Below, one piece after another: positions 18,583 through 26,735 of a DNA stretch of 64,000 bases (position 1 is the stretch's first letter; each line of letters opens with the position of its first letter). The notes under the pieces were generated by a model. The model worked only from the letters and a program-made list of their open reading frames with translations, had not been told where the DNA came from and searched no databases. Source of the stretch: Acidobacteriota bacterium (GTDB taxonomy: Bacteria; Acidobacteriota; Thermoanaerobaculia; UBA5066); contig JAKOVQ010000014.1 in the NCBI GenBank assembly GCA_029781975.1, positions 186,001 through 250,000 of the forward strand, in the 5' to 3' direction. The position numbers and the translations under genes were made by a program.

Positions 18583-19071
18583 TCACCCTCGGCGACCCGT
18601 CGGCGGGACGGGGACCGGGCTCGCCTTCACCGCCTGGGAGGCGAGGCGGCTGTAGACCAGCTGCAGCTCCCCGAGCAGCCCCTCGACGGCATCCGACTCC
18701 TCGAAGGAGAGGCGGCCGCGGGTCTTCTCCCTGAGGGCCACCAGCGAGTCGATGATCTGGCGGGCGGCGGCCAGATCGACGGAGCGGCGGCCCGTCGCCG
18801 GGTCGGGGAACCCCTCGAGGTAGAGGGACGCCGTCTGCGCCAGCATGTCGAGGAGGCGGAGGAAGCCGGGGTTCGTCGCCACCGGCGGCTCGACGGGGGT
18901 TGCCGCGGCCGCGGCCGCGGCGGCGGCCGCAGCAGCCGCCTCGCTGGCGGCCTTCTTCTCCGCCGGGGTATCGGGCCGGTCGAGCTCGGCGCGGACCTCG
19001 TCCCGGAGCTCCCCGTCCGCGTTGAACATCCTGCGGTCCACGACCTTGATCGTCTTGTCGCTGTCAGCCAT
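18583..19071 (-). CDS. DUF1844 domain protein
   Basis: A 162-residue cytosolic protein. The N-terminal 40 residues (TIKVVDRRMFNADGELRDEV) and the C-terminal helical part (FLRLLDMLAQTASLYLEG to QLVYSRLASQAV) match DUF1844, a small family of unknown function frequent in Acidobacteriota. Between them lies an unusually long alanine run (about residues 44-57) encoded by mixed GCN codons, acting as a flexible or helical linker. It is the first gene of the DUF1844-TPR-DUF4388 set. The ATG start has GAGG upstream and a TAGAAT -10-like element at 19093-19098. Confidence 0.85.
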   Translation of the reverse strand: MADSDKTIKVVDRRMFNADGELRDEVRAELDRPDTPAEKKAASEAAAAAAAAAAAAATPVEPPVATNPGFLRLLDMLAQTASLYLEGFPDPATGRRSVDLAAARQIIDSLVALREKTRGRLSFEESDAVEGLLGELQLVYSRLASQAVKASPVPVPPTGRRG

Positions 19072-19141: not shown

Positions 19142-20035
19142 ATGAGCACGGGTCGACCGACGGAATCGGAGGAGGGGACGGGCCGGCGCGCGGCGGAGGC
19201 CGGAGCCGCCGTCGCGGCCCTCGTGGTCCTGATGGACCGGTTGAGGTCCGACTGTCCCTGGGACCGCAAGCAGACGTTCCGGGAGCTCTCTGGCTACCTC
19301 CTCGAGGAGTGCTACGAGGCGCTCGACGCGCTGGCCCGCGAGGACCTCGCCGAGCTCGAGGGGGAGCTCGGCGACCTCCTCTTCCAGGTCGTCTTCCTCG
19401 CCCGGCTCGGGAGCGAGAAGGGCGCGTTCGACCTCGCGTCGGTCGCGCGGCGGATCCACGGCAAGATGGTGAGCCGGCACCCCCACGTCTTCGGGGAGGC
19501 CGAGGTCCGCGACGCCGAGGCCGTCCGGGTCCAGTGGGAGGAGATCAAGGAGCGCGAGAGGCGCGCGAAGGCGGACGGGGGGGACAGCACGGCGGCGTCC
19601 CCGTTCGCGGGCGTTCCCCGTGCCCTCCCCGCCCTCCTGAAGGCCATCCGGGTCACCTCGCGGGCCGCCGATCTGGGCTTCGACTGGCAGCGCGACGCCG
19701 ACGTCCTCGACAAGCTCGACGAGGAGGTGGCCGAGTTCAAGGCGGAGCTCCTCGCCCCCGACGCGTCGCCGGAGAGGGTGGCTCACGAGCTCGGAGACAT
19801 CCTCTTCACGGTGGTCAACGTCGCCCGGAGGCACCGGATCGACCCCGAGGCGGCCCTGCAGGCCACGAGCGCCCGCTTCGTCCGCCGCTTCGAGGAGGTC
19901 GCCCGTCGGGTCGTCGCCCGCGGCGGGACCGTCCGCGAGTCCTCGCTCGCCGAGCTCGACGCGATCTGGGACGAGGTGAAGGCGGAGGAGGAGGGCGGCT
20001 CGCCGGCCCCTCAGACCCCCAGGACGGACCAGTAG
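19142..20035 (+). CDS. mazG: Nucleoside triphosphate pyrophosphohydrolase MazG
   Basis: Hydrolyses (d)NTPs, including non-canonical ones, to NMP and pyrophosphate in the cytosol. The 297 residues hold two MazG folds. The first (about 20-140) has CPWDRKQTFRELSGYLLEE and the metal-binding EECYEALDAL and ELGDLLFQVVF blocks. The second (about 165-260) has GFDWQRDADVLDKLDEEV and ELGDILFTVVNVARR. The layout matches housekeeping MazG rather than phage or single-domain forms. ATG 19142 is preceded by GGAGGCGCGGGACG. Its last 25 bases overlap the 3' end of the convergent M14 peptidase gene, so the two messages are complementary at their ends. Confidence 0.95.
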   Translation: MSTGRPTESEEGTGRRAAEAGAAVAALVVLMDRLRSDCPWDRKQTFRELSGYLLEECYEALDALAREDLAELEGELGDLLFQVVFLARLGSEKGAFDLASVARRIHGKMVSRHPHVFGEAEVRDAEAVRVQWEEIKERERRAKADGGDSTAASPFAGVPRALPALLKAIRVTSRAADLGFDWQRDADVLDKLDEEVAEFKAELLAPDASPERVAHELGDILFTVVNVARRHRIDPEAALQATSARFVRRFEEVARRVVARGGTVRESSLAELDAIWDEVKAEEEGGSPAPQTPRTDQ

Positions 20036-22632
20036 AGCGCGTCGAAGAGGAACGGGAAGGTGGCGTGGGTCTGGGCCCGGTACTGCGGCCGGAACCCGAG
20101 GAGGACCAGCTTCCCCTTGCCGAACGTCGTGGCCACGGCCGCGGCCCGCCTCGTCAGCCGCTCCTCTCCCCGGATCCAGCCCGAGGCGAGGACGTCGCGC
20201 GCGTCGTCCGGGTAGGCGGCCAGGACCCAGCGGCTCAGCTCGGCGCCCGGGAGCGACGTCTGGAAGGCCATCGGCTCCTCGAGGAAGATGGCGACCTGCC
20301 GGGGCAGGCCCCACGTCACCGGGTGCCCGGGCGCCACGCTCACGTTGAGGAGGGTCCCGGGGCAGCGGAACTCCTCGGGCCGGCTCTTCGCCAGGACGTT
20401 CCGGACGGGGACCTCGAACTCGCCCGTCACCCAGTCGCACGCGGACGCCAGCGCGACCAGCGTCCCTCCCGCGTCGACGAAGTCGCGGAGGGCCCGGGCT
20501 CCCTCGCGCTCCAGCCCCCCCGTGTACTCGGGCGGAAGGCTGGGGACGTAGCGCGGCTCCCCCTCCTCCTGCTTGCGCCGTCCGGTCGACAGGACGTCGG
20601 GCGGCACGTCCGGAAGGACGATGACGTCGAACCTCTCGCGCAGCCTGCCGGCCTGGACGGCCGCGTTGTCGAGCGAGACGGGGGCGAACCCGTAGCGCTC
20701 GAGGAGGAACCGGGTCCACCCCTCGTCCATCGAGGCCGCCCACGGCTTGTAGAGCCCGACGCGAGGCGCCTTCAGGAGGACCGTCCCCCGGGGAGCCGCC
20801 TTCCGCGCGGTCCAGGCCACGCCGGTCCCCCCGGCCACCCCGGCCGCCGCGGCCGCGGCAGGCGCGTCGAGGAACGCGGTCCCCGCCGGAAGGCCGTCCC
20901 GCTCCACGGGAAGGACCGAGACCGTCCCCTTCGACCGGAGCGCGGCGTTGAGGACCTTCGCCCGCTCGGGGCTGTCGGGGCGGATCGCGAAGACCGCGCC
21001 GCCCTCTGTCGCCGCCGCGATTGGCGCGGGGGGCGTCCAGGGCGCGAGCCCCTCCGGCAGCGGCGCCTTCTCGACGGAGACGCCCATCATCAGGGGGAGG
21101 CTCCACGCGGTGACGTCGTAGGGCGCGACGATCTCCTTCCCCGCGACGAGCTTCACCTCGGGGTAGCGCTGCGGCTCCATCATCTCGCGGACGAACCGGC
21201 CGTAGGGCTGGGCCAGCGGGACGTAGACGTCGCCGTTCGCGTTCGCGAGGACGTCGACGTTGTGCTCCCGCATCAGCGCCGCGAGGAGCCGCGCCGTCGG
21301 CGCGTCGCGCTGCGCGGCGGGGATCCGGTACGCCTCTCCCGGGGCGGCCGCCGCGATCGTGGCGCGGGCCCTCTCGAGCATGTCGCGAAGGACGTCCTCG
21401 CGGTGGTCGGCCACGGACTCGAGGAGGGCGTCCGAGGCGATCCGCTCGTAGTCCATCACGTCGCGCAGGCGCCACGCGCCGCCCGGCCACGGGCTCGGGA
21501 AGTTCGCCTGGGCGGTGTAGGTGACGAGGCCCTTCGCGCCGCCCGCCAGCTCGGTCGGCGGCACCTCGACCGGCGTGGCCAGGCGCGGGGAGGCCACCTC
21601 GGTCAGGAGCCCCGTGACGTTCTTCCACCACGCGGTGTTCTTCGTCCCCCCCGGCCAGGAGGCGTCGAAGGCGTAGCCGTAGATGACCCCCTTCTTCCCG
21701 GCCTGCTCGAGGCGCAGGGCCATGGTCGAGCCGATCAGGTTCGCCTCGCGGAAGACGAGCGGGTGGATGTCGGGGTCCATCGGCTCGGCGTAAGGCGGGA
21801 CGAACATCCTCGGCCCCGACGGCCCCATCTGGTGCTCGTCCAGGAAGACCTGCGGGAACCAGTCGTGGTAGAGGACCCGCGTGAGGGCCTTCGTCTCCGC
21901 CTGGGTCAGCATGTACCAGTCGCGGTTGTCGTCGTGGCCCACGTAGGGGTGGTAGAGCCACGGCATCCGCCCCCCCTCCCACCTCGTCCCGAGGTACTTG
22001 CGGTACCACTCCACCTCCATCACGTTCCCGTCCGGGTTGATCGAGGGGACGAGGAGGAGGACGACCTCCGAGAGGCGCCGGAGGGTCTCGGGGTCGGTCG
22101 CCGTCGCGAGCCCGTAGGCCCACTCCATCGCCATCTGCGTCGAGCCGATCTCGCTGGCGTGGATCCCGCACGTGACGAGGACGACCGCCTTCCCCTCCTT
22201 CACGAGCGACTCCGCCTCGGCGGGAGCGAGGCCCCGCGGGTCGGCCAGACGCCGCGCGATCTCGCGGATCCTCCCCTGCCGGGCGAGGTTCTCCGGCGAG
22301 GAGACGACGGCCATCAGCATCTCCTTGCCGAGCGTCGAACGGCCGAAGGAGACGACCTCCACCCGGTCGGACGCGGCGTCGAGGGCGCGGAAGTAGTCGG
22401 AGATCTGCCGGTAGTCCGCGAGCGTCCGGTCGGCGCCGACGGGGATCCCGAGGAACGCCGAGGGGCTCGGGACCTCCGCGCCGGCGGACGCGGCCTTCGC
22501 GGAGACGGCGCCGGGTCCCGCGGGCGACGAGGGGGCCGGGACGCCCCGCGCGGAGAGGGAGAGGACCAGGAGGCCGGCCGAGAGAGGAAGCGAGAGGGAA
22601 AGCGAGAGAGGGAGTGAAGCGAGCGAGCGCAT
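20011..22632 (-). CDS. Secreted M14-family zinc carboxypeptidase with C-terminal GATase1-like domain
   Basis: An exported metallopeptidase of 873 residues. A signal peptide (1-33) is encoded by a low-complexity Leu/Ser repeat (LPLSLSLSLPLSAGLL). The M14 domain shows the zinc motif HASE (in CGIHASEIGSTQ), NPDGN, the substrate-binding DNRDW and a later zinc-ligand candidate His in FLDEHQMGPSG. From about residue 590 the chain contains a GATase1/ThuA-like fold (YKPWAASMDEGWTRFLLERY, FDVIVLPD, FVDAGGTLVALASA), as in the large M14 proteins common in Acidobacteriota and Bacteroidetes. Likely role: periplasmic or extracellular peptide degradation. ATG 22632 has TAAACT eight bases upstream and no Shine-Dalgarno. 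Confidence 0.9.
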   Translation of the reverse strand: MRSLASLPLSLSLSLPLSAGLLVLSLSARGVPAPSSPAGPGAVSAKAASAGAEVPSPSAFLGIPVGADRTLADYRQISDYFRALDAASDRVEVVSFGRSTLGKEMLMAVVSSPENLARQGRIREIARRLADPRGLAPAEAESLVKEGKAVVLVTCGIHASEIGSTQMAMEWAYGLATATDPETLRRLSEVVLLLVPSINPDGNVMEVEWYRKYLGTRWEGGRMPWLYHPYVGHDDNRDWYMLTQAETKALTRVLYHDWFPQVFLDEHQMGPSGPRMFVPPYAEPMDPDIHPLVFREANLIGSTMALRLEQAGKKGVIYGYAFDASWPGGTKNTAWWKNVTGLLTEVASPRLATPVEVPPTELAGGAKGLVTYTAQANFPSPWPGGAWRLRDVMDYERIASDALLESVADHREDVLRDMLERARATIAAAAPGEAYRIPAAQRDAPTARLLAALMREHNVDVLANANGDVYVPLAQPYGRFVREMMEPQRYPEVKLVAGKEIVAPYDVTAWSLPLMMGVSVEKAPLPEGLAPWTPPAPIAAATEGGAVFAIRPDSPERAKVLNAALRSKGTVSVLPVERDGLPAGTAFLDAPAAAAAAGVAGGTGVAWTARKAAPRGTVLLKAPRVGLYKPWAASMDEGWTRFLLERYGFAPVSLDNAAVQAGRLRERFDVIVLPDVPPDVLSTGRRKQEEGEPRYVPSLPPEYTGGLEREGARALRDFVDAGGTLVALASACDWVTGEFEVPVRNVLAKSRPEEFRCPGTLLNVSVAPGHPVTWGLPRQVAIFLEEPMAFQTSLPGAELSRWVLAAYPDDARDVLASGWIRGEERLTRRAAAVATTFGKGKLVLLGFRPQYRAQTHATFPFLFDALYWSVLGV

Positions 22633-23183: not shown

Positions 23184-24143
23184 TCAGTCGACCAGCTCGG
23201 AGAGGCGGACCCGGAGGATCCCCCGCCGGGGAAGGTCGGGGAGGTGCGAGGAGAGGAAGTCGAGGGTGTCGGCGTGCGGGTGGCCGATCACGACGCAGCG
23301 GCCGTTCCTCCTCGCGAGGCGGAGCGCGCGCTCCCACTCGGGGGCGAAGACGGCGGGAGAGAGGGGCGCGTCGGGCCGCTCGGCGCGGGCCGCGTCGAGG
23401 AAGACGTCGCGGGAGAGCGACGGGACCCCCATCGCCTGCGCCTCGGCCGCGCCGACGGAGGCGGCCGTCGTGCGCGAGTCGAGGAAGAGGAGGCCGCGCG
23501 CGTGGAGGACCGAGAGGACGGCCCTGACGACCCGCCGGTCCGCCGTCGCCTTCGACCCCTGGTGGTTGTTCACGCCGATGGCGCCCGGGACGCGCGCGAG
23601 GGCGTCCTCCACCTTGACGGCGATGGTCCCGTCGTCGTCCCCGGGACCGATCGAGCCGGGCTCGAACGCGCCCGCGACCGGCTCCATCGGCAGGTGGACG
23701 AGGACGTCCCACCCCTTGCTCCTCGCGAGCGCGGCGGCCTCGGCCGCGCGCGGGGCGTCGGGGATGATGGCGACGGTGAGGGGCCCGGAGAGGCGCGCCA
23801 GCCGGTCGAGCGCCCCCCCCGCGAACCCGACGTCGTCCAGGACGACCGCCAGGGCTCCCCCCTTCGCCTGCTTCTCCACCGGCTCGAAGTCCTTCGGGAG
23901 CGCCTCGGTCGAGGTCGCCTCGGCGGGGAGCGGCGTCGCCGGGGGCGGAGGCGGGGGCGTGGGAGCCTCCGCCTGGCGCCCCGCCTCCGTCCCGGGCCCC
24001 GGCGGGACCGCGGCCGGCCCCCGGTGGAGCGTCATCCACGCCCAGGCGCCGAACGCCCCGACCGCCACGCATCCGAGGACGAGGAGGAGCCGCGGCAGGA
24101 GCCGGCCCGCCCCTCCCGGCCGACCCCTCCGGCGGGCCGTCAC
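23184..24143 (-). CDS. Divergent polysaccharide deacetylase family protein (YibQ/DUF610-like)
   Basis: A 319-residue exported or membrane-anchored protein. An N-terminal membrane segment (about 14-36; LLPRLLLVLGCVAVGAFGAW) is followed by a Pro-rich spacer (about 50-85) and the NodB-like divergent deacetylase fold. Blocks are LAVVLDDVGF, LTVAIIPDAPRA, VLVHLPMEP, GVNNHQGSKAT, LLFLDSRTT and VVIGHPHADTL. Metal-type Asp and His positions are kept, but enzymatic activity of this family is unproven. The gene overlaps the S41-like gene by four bases. The EnvC-Ctp-YibQ gene order is shared with many Gram-negative bacteria and points to cell-wall remodelling. Confidence 0.88.
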   Translation of the reverse strand: MTARRRGRPGGAGRLLPRLLLVLGCVAVGAFGAWAWMTLHRGPAAVPPGPGTEAGRQAEAPTPPPPPPATPLPAEATSTEALPKDFEPVEKQAKGGALAVVLDDVGFAGGALDRLARLSGPLTVAIIPDAPRAAEAAALARSKGWDVLVHLPMEPVAGAFEPGSIGPGDDDGTIAVKVEDALARVPGAIGVNNHQGSKATADRRVVRAVLSVLHARGLLFLDSRTTAASVGAAEAQAMGVPSLSRDVFLDAARAERPDAPLSPAVFAPEWERALRLARRNGRCVVIGHPHADTLDFLSSHLPDLPRRGILRVRLSELVD

Positions 24144-25462
24144 GACGCGGTCTTGGCCGGCTCCGGACGCCCCTCGGCGAGGACCTTGAGGCCCCGCTGC
24201 AGGAACGGATCGGGAGGGGGCGGCGTGGCGGCGGCCTCGTCCGGCCCGAGGTGGTAGACGCGGTCGTCGGGCTCGAGCCCCCGCGGGGAGAGGCTCCGCC
24301 CTCCGGCGGTCCGCAGCTTCCCGACGGTCAGCTTCAGGGCGCCGCCGCTCGCGAGGCGGACCACCTCCTGGGTGATCCCCATCCCGAACGTGGGCTCGCC
24401 GACCAGGCGGACGCGCATCTTCGCCTTCTCCCCCGGGAACGGGCCCGTCGGCCCGGCGGCCGGGTCCGCGTCGGCATCCTCGTCGGAGGGTCTCGCGGCG
24501 AGGGCCGCCTTGCCGACGCCCGCCTCACGGGCCGCGGACTCCCGGAGCGCCGCCGCGAAGAGCTCGGCCGGCCCGGCGGTCCCGCTGTCGACGAGGACGA
24601 CGACCCTGCCGGTGGCGACCTGCTCCTTCGGCCCGGCGACGAAGCGGGTCGTCTCGATCTTCCGGCCCTTCATCTCGGCCAGGGGACCGGCGGGGACGAA
24701 GAGGGCGGCGGCCCGCGCCGCCTCCTCGAACGACCCGTACGCGTTCCCCCGGACGTCGACGATCAGCGGCCTGGTCCTGTCGAGGGGCTCGAGGATCGCC
24801 GCCAGGGCCTTCGCCGTCCCGGGCCCGAACGTCGGGAGCGTGACGACCAGCTCGCCGGAGACGCGGGTGGAGCTGGGCATCGCCGGCGACCAGGAGGTCC
24901 GGACGACGTCGAGGGTCCGCCGGTGGGGCCGGGAGTCCCTGACGACGAAGAGCTGGACCTTCCCGCCGGGCTTGCCGGCGAGCGCCGCCTCGACCTCCCA
25001 GAGGGCCATGGTCCGGGCCGACCGGTCGCCGACCTTCTCGAGGATGTCGTCCGACTGGAGGCCCGCCAGCGCCGCCGGGCCGCCGGCCACCGCGGAGACG
25101 ACGACCGGATAGCCCGCCCGCCGCGCCAGGACCACCCCGGCCTCGACGTCGTCGGCCTTCCGGCGCGCCGCGCGGGCCGCCTCGAAGGCGGCCATCTTGT
25201 CCGGCGGGATGTACTCGGAGAAGGGGTCCATCGCCTCGGTCATCCCGGCGAACGCCCCCTGGAGGAGCGGTTTGAGCTCCACCTTCTCCACGTAGTTGCT
25301 GCGGACGAGCGAGACGACCTCGGTGAAGAGGCCGAGCGGGCGGTAGAGGCCGTCCTTCGACCCCTTGTCGTTCTCGTCGGCCCCGAAGCCGGGGAGGACG
25401 ACGAACAGGCCGAGGATCAGGGCGAACGAGGTGAGGAGCGTCGCGAGCCGGGACTTCGTCAC
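24140..25462 (-). CDS. S41 (CtpA-type) family protein lacking the catalytic Ser and Lys
   Basis: An exported PDZ/S41 protein of 440 residues: signal or anchor segment (about 6-28), helical N-domain with MTEAMDPFSEYIPPD, a PDZ domain (about 95-175) and the S41 core. C-terminal processing proteases cut exported proteins with a Ser-Lys dyad in (S/T)AS-ASE and GEPTFGKG. Here these read GTAGPAE (residues 294-300), with Gly297 at the serine position, and GEPTFGMGITQ, with Met361 at the lysine position. Gln365 is kept. About 35 acidic, Pro/Ala-rich residues separate the blocks more than usual. I infer an inactive scaffold. GTG 25462 has TATCAT six bases upstream, lying between this gene and the EnvC-like gene. 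Confidence 0.85.
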   Translation of the reverse strand: MTKSRLATLLTSFALILGLFVVLPGFGADENDKGSKDGLYRPLGLFTEVVSLVRSNYVEKVELKPLLQGAFAGMTEAMDPFSEYIPPDKMAAFEAARAARRKADDVEAGVVLARRAGYPVVVSAVAGGPAALAGLQSDDILEKVGDRSARTMALWEVEAALAGKPGGKVQLFVVRDSRPHRRTLDVVRTSWSPAMPSSTRVSGELVVTLPTFGPGTAKALAAILEPLDRTRPLIVDVRGNAYGSFEEAARAAALFVPAGPLAEMKGRKIETTRFVAGPKEQVATGRVVVLVDSGTAGPAELFAAALRESAAREAGVGKAALAARPSDEDADADPAAGPTGPFPGEKAKMRVRLVGEPTFGMGITQEVVRLASGGALKLTVGKLRTAGGRSLSPRGLEPDDRVYHLGPDEAAATPPPPDPFLQRGLKVLAEGRPEPAKTAS

Positions 25463-25481: not shown

Positions 25482-26735
25482 TCAGCGGAGCCACTCCCGG
25501 GGGTCGACGGACGTCCGCGCCTCCCTCACCTCGAAGTAGAGGCCGCCGGGCTCGTCCTCGGGGGGATCCGCCACCCGTCCGATCCTCTCCCCCACCCCGA
25601 CGCGGGTCCCCCGCGAGACGGTGCCGGTCATCAGGTGACCGTAGAGCGTGAAGACCCCCTCCCCGTGGTCGATCACGACGAGGTTCCCGTATCCCTTCAG
25701 CCACTGGGCGAAGACGACGTCCCCGGCGAAGACCGCCCGGACGTCGGTCCCGACCGGGGCGTCGATGGTCCAGCCGGTCGACCGGAGGAACGTCCTGGGG
25801 AACTTGGGGTTCGCGATCCGGCCGAACGGGACGACGACCGCCCCCCGGACCGGCCAGTCGAGCGCGCCCCGGAACTTCCGGATCGAGGCGGAGCCGGCGG
25901 GGAGGGCCCGACCCCGCGTCTCGAGGAGCTCGAGGAGCGCGGCCAGGCGGGTCGTCTTGTCCTCCAGCTGGGTCACGGCCTGCCGCTGCTGCTCCTCCGC
26001 CTGCCGGACGCGGCCGAGCAGGGCCGCCTGCTGGGCCCGCGCCAGCTGCAGGGCCCGCTCGCGCTGGCGGCTCTCCCGCGCCCACCCCGAGAGCTGCTGC
26101 TGCTGGTCCGCCAGGTGGCGCTCGAGGTTCTGGAGGTTGGCGAGCGCCCCCTCGTACTTCCGGAGGAGGAGCGCGTCCCGGCGGACGAGGAAGCTCAGGA
26201 GCTGGAGCCCGCGGAGGAATCGCTCGCCGGAGTCGGCCGAGACGAGCGTCTGCAGGTAGCCGAGGCGCCCCATCCGGTAGAGGGCCCCGACCCGGACGTT
26301 CAGGTCGACGCGGAGGGCGTCCACCTGGCGCCGGGCCTCGTCGCGGCCCGACCGGGCGTCGGCGACGGCCCGCTCGGCCTCCGCCGTCTTCAGCTCCGCC
26401 TCCCGTCTCTCCGCGGTCCGGATCTCGAGGTTCAGCTCGGCGTCGGCCAGGGACTGCTGGGCGTCGGCGGCCTTGCGGCGGGTCGCCTCCCACCGCGCCT
26501 TCAGGTCGGCGAGCCGGCGCCTGAGGAGCCCGAGCTCCCGCCTCTCGCCTTCGACCCCCGCCGGAGCGGGGCGCGCGGCTTCTTGGGCGGGACCCGCGGC
26601 GGGGGTCGCGGCCGGAGCCGCCGCTGGGGACGGGGGCATCTCGGCAGCGGGCTCGGCGGGGGTGCCGGCCATGACGGCGGCGGCGACGGTGGCGGCGGCC
26701 GTCGCCACGAAGGCGGCGAGCAGGGGCCCCCTCAG
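25482..26735 (-). CDS. EnvC/NlpD-like murein hydrolase activator (coiled coil plus degenerate LytM/M23 domain)
   Basis: A periplasmic protein of about 417 residues. After an N-terminal hydrophobic signal (about 1-24) and an Ala/Pro spacer, a long coiled coil (about 60-270; RRRLADLKARWEATRRKA) leads to a C-terminal LytM/M23 domain (about 295-415; GWTIDAPVGTDVRAVFAGDV, GYGNLVVIDHGEG). In active M23 enzymes a zinc-ligand His lies four residues before this Asp; here it is Gly. The domain is therefore probably non-catalytic, like E. coli EnvC, which activates cell-separation amidases. No ATG, GTG or TTG gives a charged signal peptide. CTG 26735, within the CTGA that ends the upstream gene, gives LRGPLLAAFVATAAATVAAA and is the proposed start. 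Confidence 0.85.
   Translation of the reverse strand: MRGPLLAAFVATAAATVAAAVMAGTPAEPAAEMPPSPAAAPAATPAAGPAQEAARPAPAGVEGERRELGLLRRRLADLKARWEATRRKAADAQQSLADAELNLEIRTAERREAELKTAEAERAVADARSGRDEARRQVDALRVDLNVRVGALYRMGRLGYLQTLVSADSGERFLRGLQLLSFLVRRDALLLRKYEGALANLQNLERHLADQQQQLSGWARESRQRERALQLARAQQAALLGRVRQAEEQQRQAVTQLEDKTTRLAALLELLETRGRALPAGSASIRKFRGALDWPVRGAVVVPFGRIANPKFPRTFLRSTGWTIDAPVGTDVRAVFAGDVVFAQWLKGYGNLVVIDHGEGVFTLYGHLMTGTVSRGTRVGVGERIGRVADPPEDEPGGLYFEVREARTSVDPREWLR

Follow-up and report, generated by a model that had tools for sequence, protein, structure and literature searches.

The window, as the whole 64,000-nucleotide stretch of acidobacterial DNA analysed here is called, carries in an envC-ctpA-yibQ operon a CtpA-type S41 gene whose product has lost both catalytic residues of the family, with Gly297 standing for the nucleophilic Ser and Met361 for the general-base Lys. 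This loss is conserved among relatives and the gene is under purifying selection. Since Gly and Met replace both catalytic residues, the S41 Ser-Lys mechanism is closed to the protein, and from its sequence we infer that proteolytic activity has been lost. On balance, the gene probably encodes a secreted dimeric pseudoprotease, selected as a non-catalytic binding protein, namely a scaffold or regulator, in the control of septal amidases. The original prediction, which had interpreted this single gene as a pseudoprotease kept for binding or scaffolding, is thereby partly supported as a whole, and the loss of the dyad is found to reach much further, as the operon-linked S41 protein is dyad-less in nearly the whole phylum Acidobacteriota.

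The operon is made up of three genes on one strand:

25482..26699 (start putative), minus strand: EnvC-like amidase activator with a coiled coil and a degenerate LytM/M23 domain (Pfam Peptidase_M23)
24140..25462, minus strand: S41/CtpA-type pseudoprotease gene, 440 aa, GTG start at 25462, stop codon 24142-24140
23184..24143, minus strand: YibQ/SddA divergent polysaccharide deacetylase (Pfam PF04748, 2e-61), whose GTG start overlaps the S41 stop (GTGA)

The S41 gene thus lies between the EnvC-like and PF04748 genes, with the stop codon of the EnvC-like gene 19 bp before the S41 start, and the claim of an intact frame and operon position is borne out, the same operon being conserved in relatives. 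The EnvC-like protein has its best PDB matches among EnvC-type structures (8tzk, 6tpi and 8hd0), and its metal site shows the same kind of degeneration as in the known amidase activator EnvC of E. coli. The metal ligands of the YibQ/SddA protein are apparently kept, as judged by alignment to 2nly. In P. aeruginosa, the corresponding operon is envC-ctpA-PA5135 and CtpA together with LbcA degrades cell-wall hydrolases (PMC12569750). In E. coli, the activation of septal amidases is modulated by SddA, a deacetylase of denuded strands (PMC12440217). Amidase_3 proteins and FtsX are also encoded in the genome from which the window derives. In the same part of the window are found a gene for an M14 zinc-carboxypeptidase-like protein of 873 aa (20011-22632, minus strand), separated from yibQ by a TerB-like gene, and a DUF1844 gene (18583-19071, minus strand). 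A DUF1844 gene is also the immediate downstream neighbour of pseudo-ctpA in family f9 (L159:3917-5083, minus strand), with envC and yibQ not nearby.

The domain order of the 440-aa protein is a Sec-type signal sequence, recognized by inspection and hence pointing to a periplasmic location, followed by an N-terminal dimerisation region, a PDZ domain and the S41 core, with the two middle segments located as follows:

25148..25354, minus strand: N-terminal dimerisation region, residues 37-105, with hydrophobic dimer-interface positions kept in dyad-less relatives
24893..25147, minus strand: PDZ domain, residues about 106-190 (Pfam PDZ_6, 1.8e-8)

This layout, foreseen as a helical N-domain, PDZ and S41 core, was recovered by Pfam as CtpB_N-like, PDZ and Peptidase_S41 matches, the last in two pieces split by an insertion. 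With 91 bits against PF03572 (cut-off 24), the protein has the S41 core, and it scores 144.7 bits against the NCBIfam model TIGR00225 (prc), below the curated cut-off of 218.6; the Ser nucleophile and Lys base of S41A (CtpA/Prc) proteases are absent. An AF2 model of mean pLDDT 87 predicts a CtpA fold and dimer surface, and its best PDB matches are all CtpA/CtpB-type proteases. P. aeruginosa CtpA (S41A), which is among the best matches by sequence and the best by fold, has domain order, operon neighbours and the register of the dimer interface in common with the window protein; it differs in being active through Ser302 and Lys327, in degrading cell-wall hydrolases and in lacking the 40 residues inserted ahead of the Lys motif. 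The fold is also that of Helicobacter pylori CtpA and Bacillus CtpB, which are active and have Ser, Lys and Gln in place. The model of the window protein is closest to their resting conformations and fits resting forms better than active ones, the TM values by target length being 0.77 for 9ksp_B, 0.61 for 4c2e and 0.47 for 4c2c, and the model of a distant dyad-less relative (L102) is likewise closer to resting than to active CtpA/CtpB conformers, a likeness that may reflect a bias of the method.

The catalytic positions and the insertion map to the following segments:

24563..24589, minus strand: nucleophile motif DSGTAGPAE, residues 292-300, with Gly297 at the Ser position
24416..24535, minus strand: family-specific insertion, residues about 310-349, AAREAGVGKAALAARPSDEDADADPAAGPTGPFPGEKAKM, Ala/Pro/Asp-rich and predicted to be flexible
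24377..24400, minus strand: general-base motif GEPTFGMG, residues 355-362, with Met361 at the Lys position
24368..24370, minus strand: Gln365 codon CAG, equivalent to the third residue of the CtpB triad and varying in orthologues

In phmmer alignments to solved CtpA structures, Gly297 (codon GGG, plus-strand coordinates 24572-24574) falls on the nucleophilic Ser and Met361 (ATG, 24380-24382) on the Lys of TFGKG, exactly as had been proposed. Among relatives drawn from the family, order and class of the window organism, all 12 same-family orthologues have Gly at position 297, and position 361 is Met in ten and Ala in two of them, so that Gly combined with Met or Ala is seen in 13/13 when the window protein is counted. 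Because these 12 orthologues agree, sequencing error or chance is ruled out as the cause of the replacements. The argument drawn originally from the supporting Gln365 fared differently: this Gln is indeed present in the window protein, but in several orthologues its place is taken by Ala, Tyr or Leu, and it was dropped as a sign of a retained active site. In P. aeruginosa CtpA, the S302A or K327A substitution abolishes activity in vivo and Q331A has little effect (PMC11021448), and hence it is the replacement of Ser and Lys that counts. The insertion, described earlier as acidic and Pro/Ala-rich and as widening the spacing between the blocks, is real, with 12-52 residues between aligned flanks in the window protein's family as compared to about 4 elsewhere, although it is just mildly acidic overall. 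Its mean pairwise identity within this family is 27%, where the N-terminal region, PDZ and core reach 63-72%, and its pLDDT in the AF2 model is low.

The extent of the dyad loss was surveyed using yibQ as an anchor, so that relatives were not picked by motif. Ninety of 247 acidobacterial genomes surveyed contained yibQ, and together with the relatives from the family, order and class of the window organism 93 distinct yibQ loci were obtained. An S41 gene lies upstream of yibQ on the same strand in 90 of these 93 loci, and only three of the 90 S41 genes retain Ser and Lys, all three in family f8. The other yibQ-linked loci have Gly/Leu, Gly/Met, Gly/His, Arg/Asp and many further combinations, with residue calls in the most divergent proteins depending on the alignment. 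Distant dyad-less examples are still above the Pfam S41 cut-off, and the model of L102 (pLDDT 84) matches CtpA structures. Family f36 lacks the S41 gene and has envC immediately adjacent to yibQ (L139:3119-5437), an order also known from E. coli, and the operon can thus function in the absence of the S41 protein. Conversely, family f9 and the Blastocatellia have dyad-less S41 proteins encoded apart from envC and yibQ, and hence the operon is not obligatory for the role of this protein. Both observations count against the interpretation favoured here. CtpA-type proteins with Gly/Ala at the Ser/Lys positions and the Gln kept were seen on contigs of Blastocatellia and other Acidobacteria (L081-L084, L086 and L090), one of which (L083) has ruvX and yceG/mltG adjoining rather than envC and yibQ. 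Named matches of the window protein's family come from metagenome-assembled Acidobacteriota, some labelled Thermoanaerobaculia, and give no frequency because the search patterns contained the Gly motif.

Family f8 informs on how the dyad was lost. Ser, Lys and Gln are kept in 10 of its 16 informative proteins, and the remaining ones have Ala (GCC) or Gly (GGN) in place of Ser (TCN), or Arg in place of Lys. These variants, among which the codon series Ser (TCC), Ala (GCC) and Gly (GGC) is visible, look like steps of recent, separate losses. When dyad state within f8 was compared with yibQ adjacency, no clean pattern was found. In a tree that was built by a quick method and has several long branches, the f8 proteins with the dyad branch from within dyad-less ones, which could also be read as loss of the dyad near the base of the Acidobacteriota, giving a standing non-catalytic septal regulator, and a later regain of Ser-Lys in f8, by which a pseudoprotease would have turned back into a protease. 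With regain allowed, a two-state model gave lnL -14.5 as compared to -16.1 for a loss-only history, which needs nine losses, a difference that is not decisive. Since the TCN Ser codons of f8 and the Ser/Ala/Gly series fit ongoing loss, repeated loss stays the more likely history, and a regain is rather improbable.

Pairwise dN/dS values, obtained by a counting method within genera of the window protein's family, range from 0.11 to 0.24, with higher values in some wider or very close pairs (0.41-0.47 for the window protein to L009/L010, and 0.40 for L028-L034). The positions reported as hydrophobic in the N-terminal dimer interface of P. aeruginosa CtpA (PMC8764530) carry hydrophobic residues in 68-100% of 94 dyad-less proteins, as compared to 29% at the other positions of this region. 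When dead proteins of the window protein's family (f1) are compared with active f8 proteins, the dimerisation region is the most alike (0.46) and the core the least (0.31-0.33), and canonical CtpAs have the reverse order, with 0.36 for the N-terminal region and 0.60 for the core. Conservation, as read from these alignments, has thus shifted away from the catalytic core and towards the N-terminal dimerisation region, a pattern expected if binding and oligomerisation, more than catalysis, hold the family. With an S41 fold that is devoid of the catalytic residues, in frame, under purifying selection and kept in relatives, the protein qualifies as a pseudoprotease. The earlier assertion that it is such a protein and not a decayed gene is therefore well supported by the replaced dyad in every close orthologue, the intact frame, the low dN/dS within genera, the confidently predicted fold and the conserved operon. 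That it is kept for binding or scaffolding agrees with the preserved dimer interface and PDZ domain and with the shift in conservation, its partners being putative.

Among other explanations, the least unlikely, though given a clearly minor chance, is that the protein regulates the intact CtpA or an adaptor by N-terminal heterodimers or substrate competition, rather than acting with EnvC and SddA. The kept dimer interface would suit such a role, and the same genome does encode a separate CtpA with intact Ser, Lys and Gln (L001). Furthermore, on four alphaproteobacterial contigs (L085, L087, L088 and L089) an active-type ctpA (GSASASE, TFGKGSVQ) directly precedes a Gly/Arg copy (GTAGPAE, TFKRGSAQ), apparently an independent pseudoprotease in tandem with an active paralogue; on three of these four contigs yibQ follows. 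However, L001 lies on another contig, is longer and divergent, and has 23% identity to the window protein, and since canonical CtpAs show little resemblance to the window protein's family in their N-terminal regions (0.19-0.23), mixed dimers are less likely here.

Slow decay after relaxed selection, with the gene carried along between two needed genes whose translation it couples, comes next in likelihood and is quite unlikely. The lack of an S41 gene between envC and yibQ in f36, the overlap of the S41 stop with the yibQ start and the raised dN/dS in the pairs named above would agree with it, but nearly all of the relatives examined have an intact frame, dN/dS is low within genera, the dimer residues are conserved across the 94 proteins and the gene persists outside the operon in f9 and Blastocatellia. 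Last in the order, and very improbable, comes a protease still active through another nucleophile or a Ser-Lys pair elsewhere in the fold. The fold is predicted to be intact and Ser293, Ser372 and Lys382 are invariant within the window protein's family; yet no possible pair is kept in the sister family f2, where Ser293 is Gly and Lys382 is Glu, Ser372 and Lys382 align with ordinary strand positions of the S41 fold, and losses recur at both catalytic positions with many different residues. An alternative Ser-Lys pair, which the original prediction had named as a finding that would speak against it, was set aside, as none is conserved across f1 and f2.

For the preferred reading, a non-catalytic S41 protein would work alongside the amidase activator EnvC and the denuded-strand deacetylase SddA/YibQ of the same operon. 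Its PDZ domain and substrate tunnel may still bind the tails of cell-wall enzymes or of their activators, and the dimer would hold, mask or position such bound proteins at the septum, thereby tuning the activity of the FtsEX-EnvC-amidase system. The operon and the work in P. aeruginosa and E. coli suggest these partners, a use of the PDZ domain and an effect on amidase activity at division. The service of an S41-like fold in binding without proteolysis has a counterpart in the vertebrate interphotoreceptor retinoid-binding protein (IRBP/RBP3), likened here by description only, which is a eukaryotic ligand carrier with no link to EnvC. Within the EnvC/SddA pathway itself, EnvC with its degenerate LytM domain and Atu2773, an SddA relative without metal ligands, are retained pseudoenzymes (PMC12440217). 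As members of the same pathway or operon that are kept after loss of catalysis, they resemble the window S41 protein; they differ in their folds, and at the window locus the dead member is the S41 protein, SddA being apparently intact. A literature search for bacterial S41 pseudoproteases yielded no description of such a family.

As the S41 copies match peptidase S41 models, they are likely annotated as S41 peptidases, and yet in the greater part of a large phylum the S41 protein encoded next to envC and yibQ is unable to cut by the S41 mechanism. Family f8 includes closely related proteins whose dyads are intact, lost in half or lost altogether, in which proteolysis and binding can be tested side by side. 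The loss of the dyad points to a non-proteolytic job of CtpA in the control of septal cell-wall hydrolysis, which may also operate in active CtpAs.
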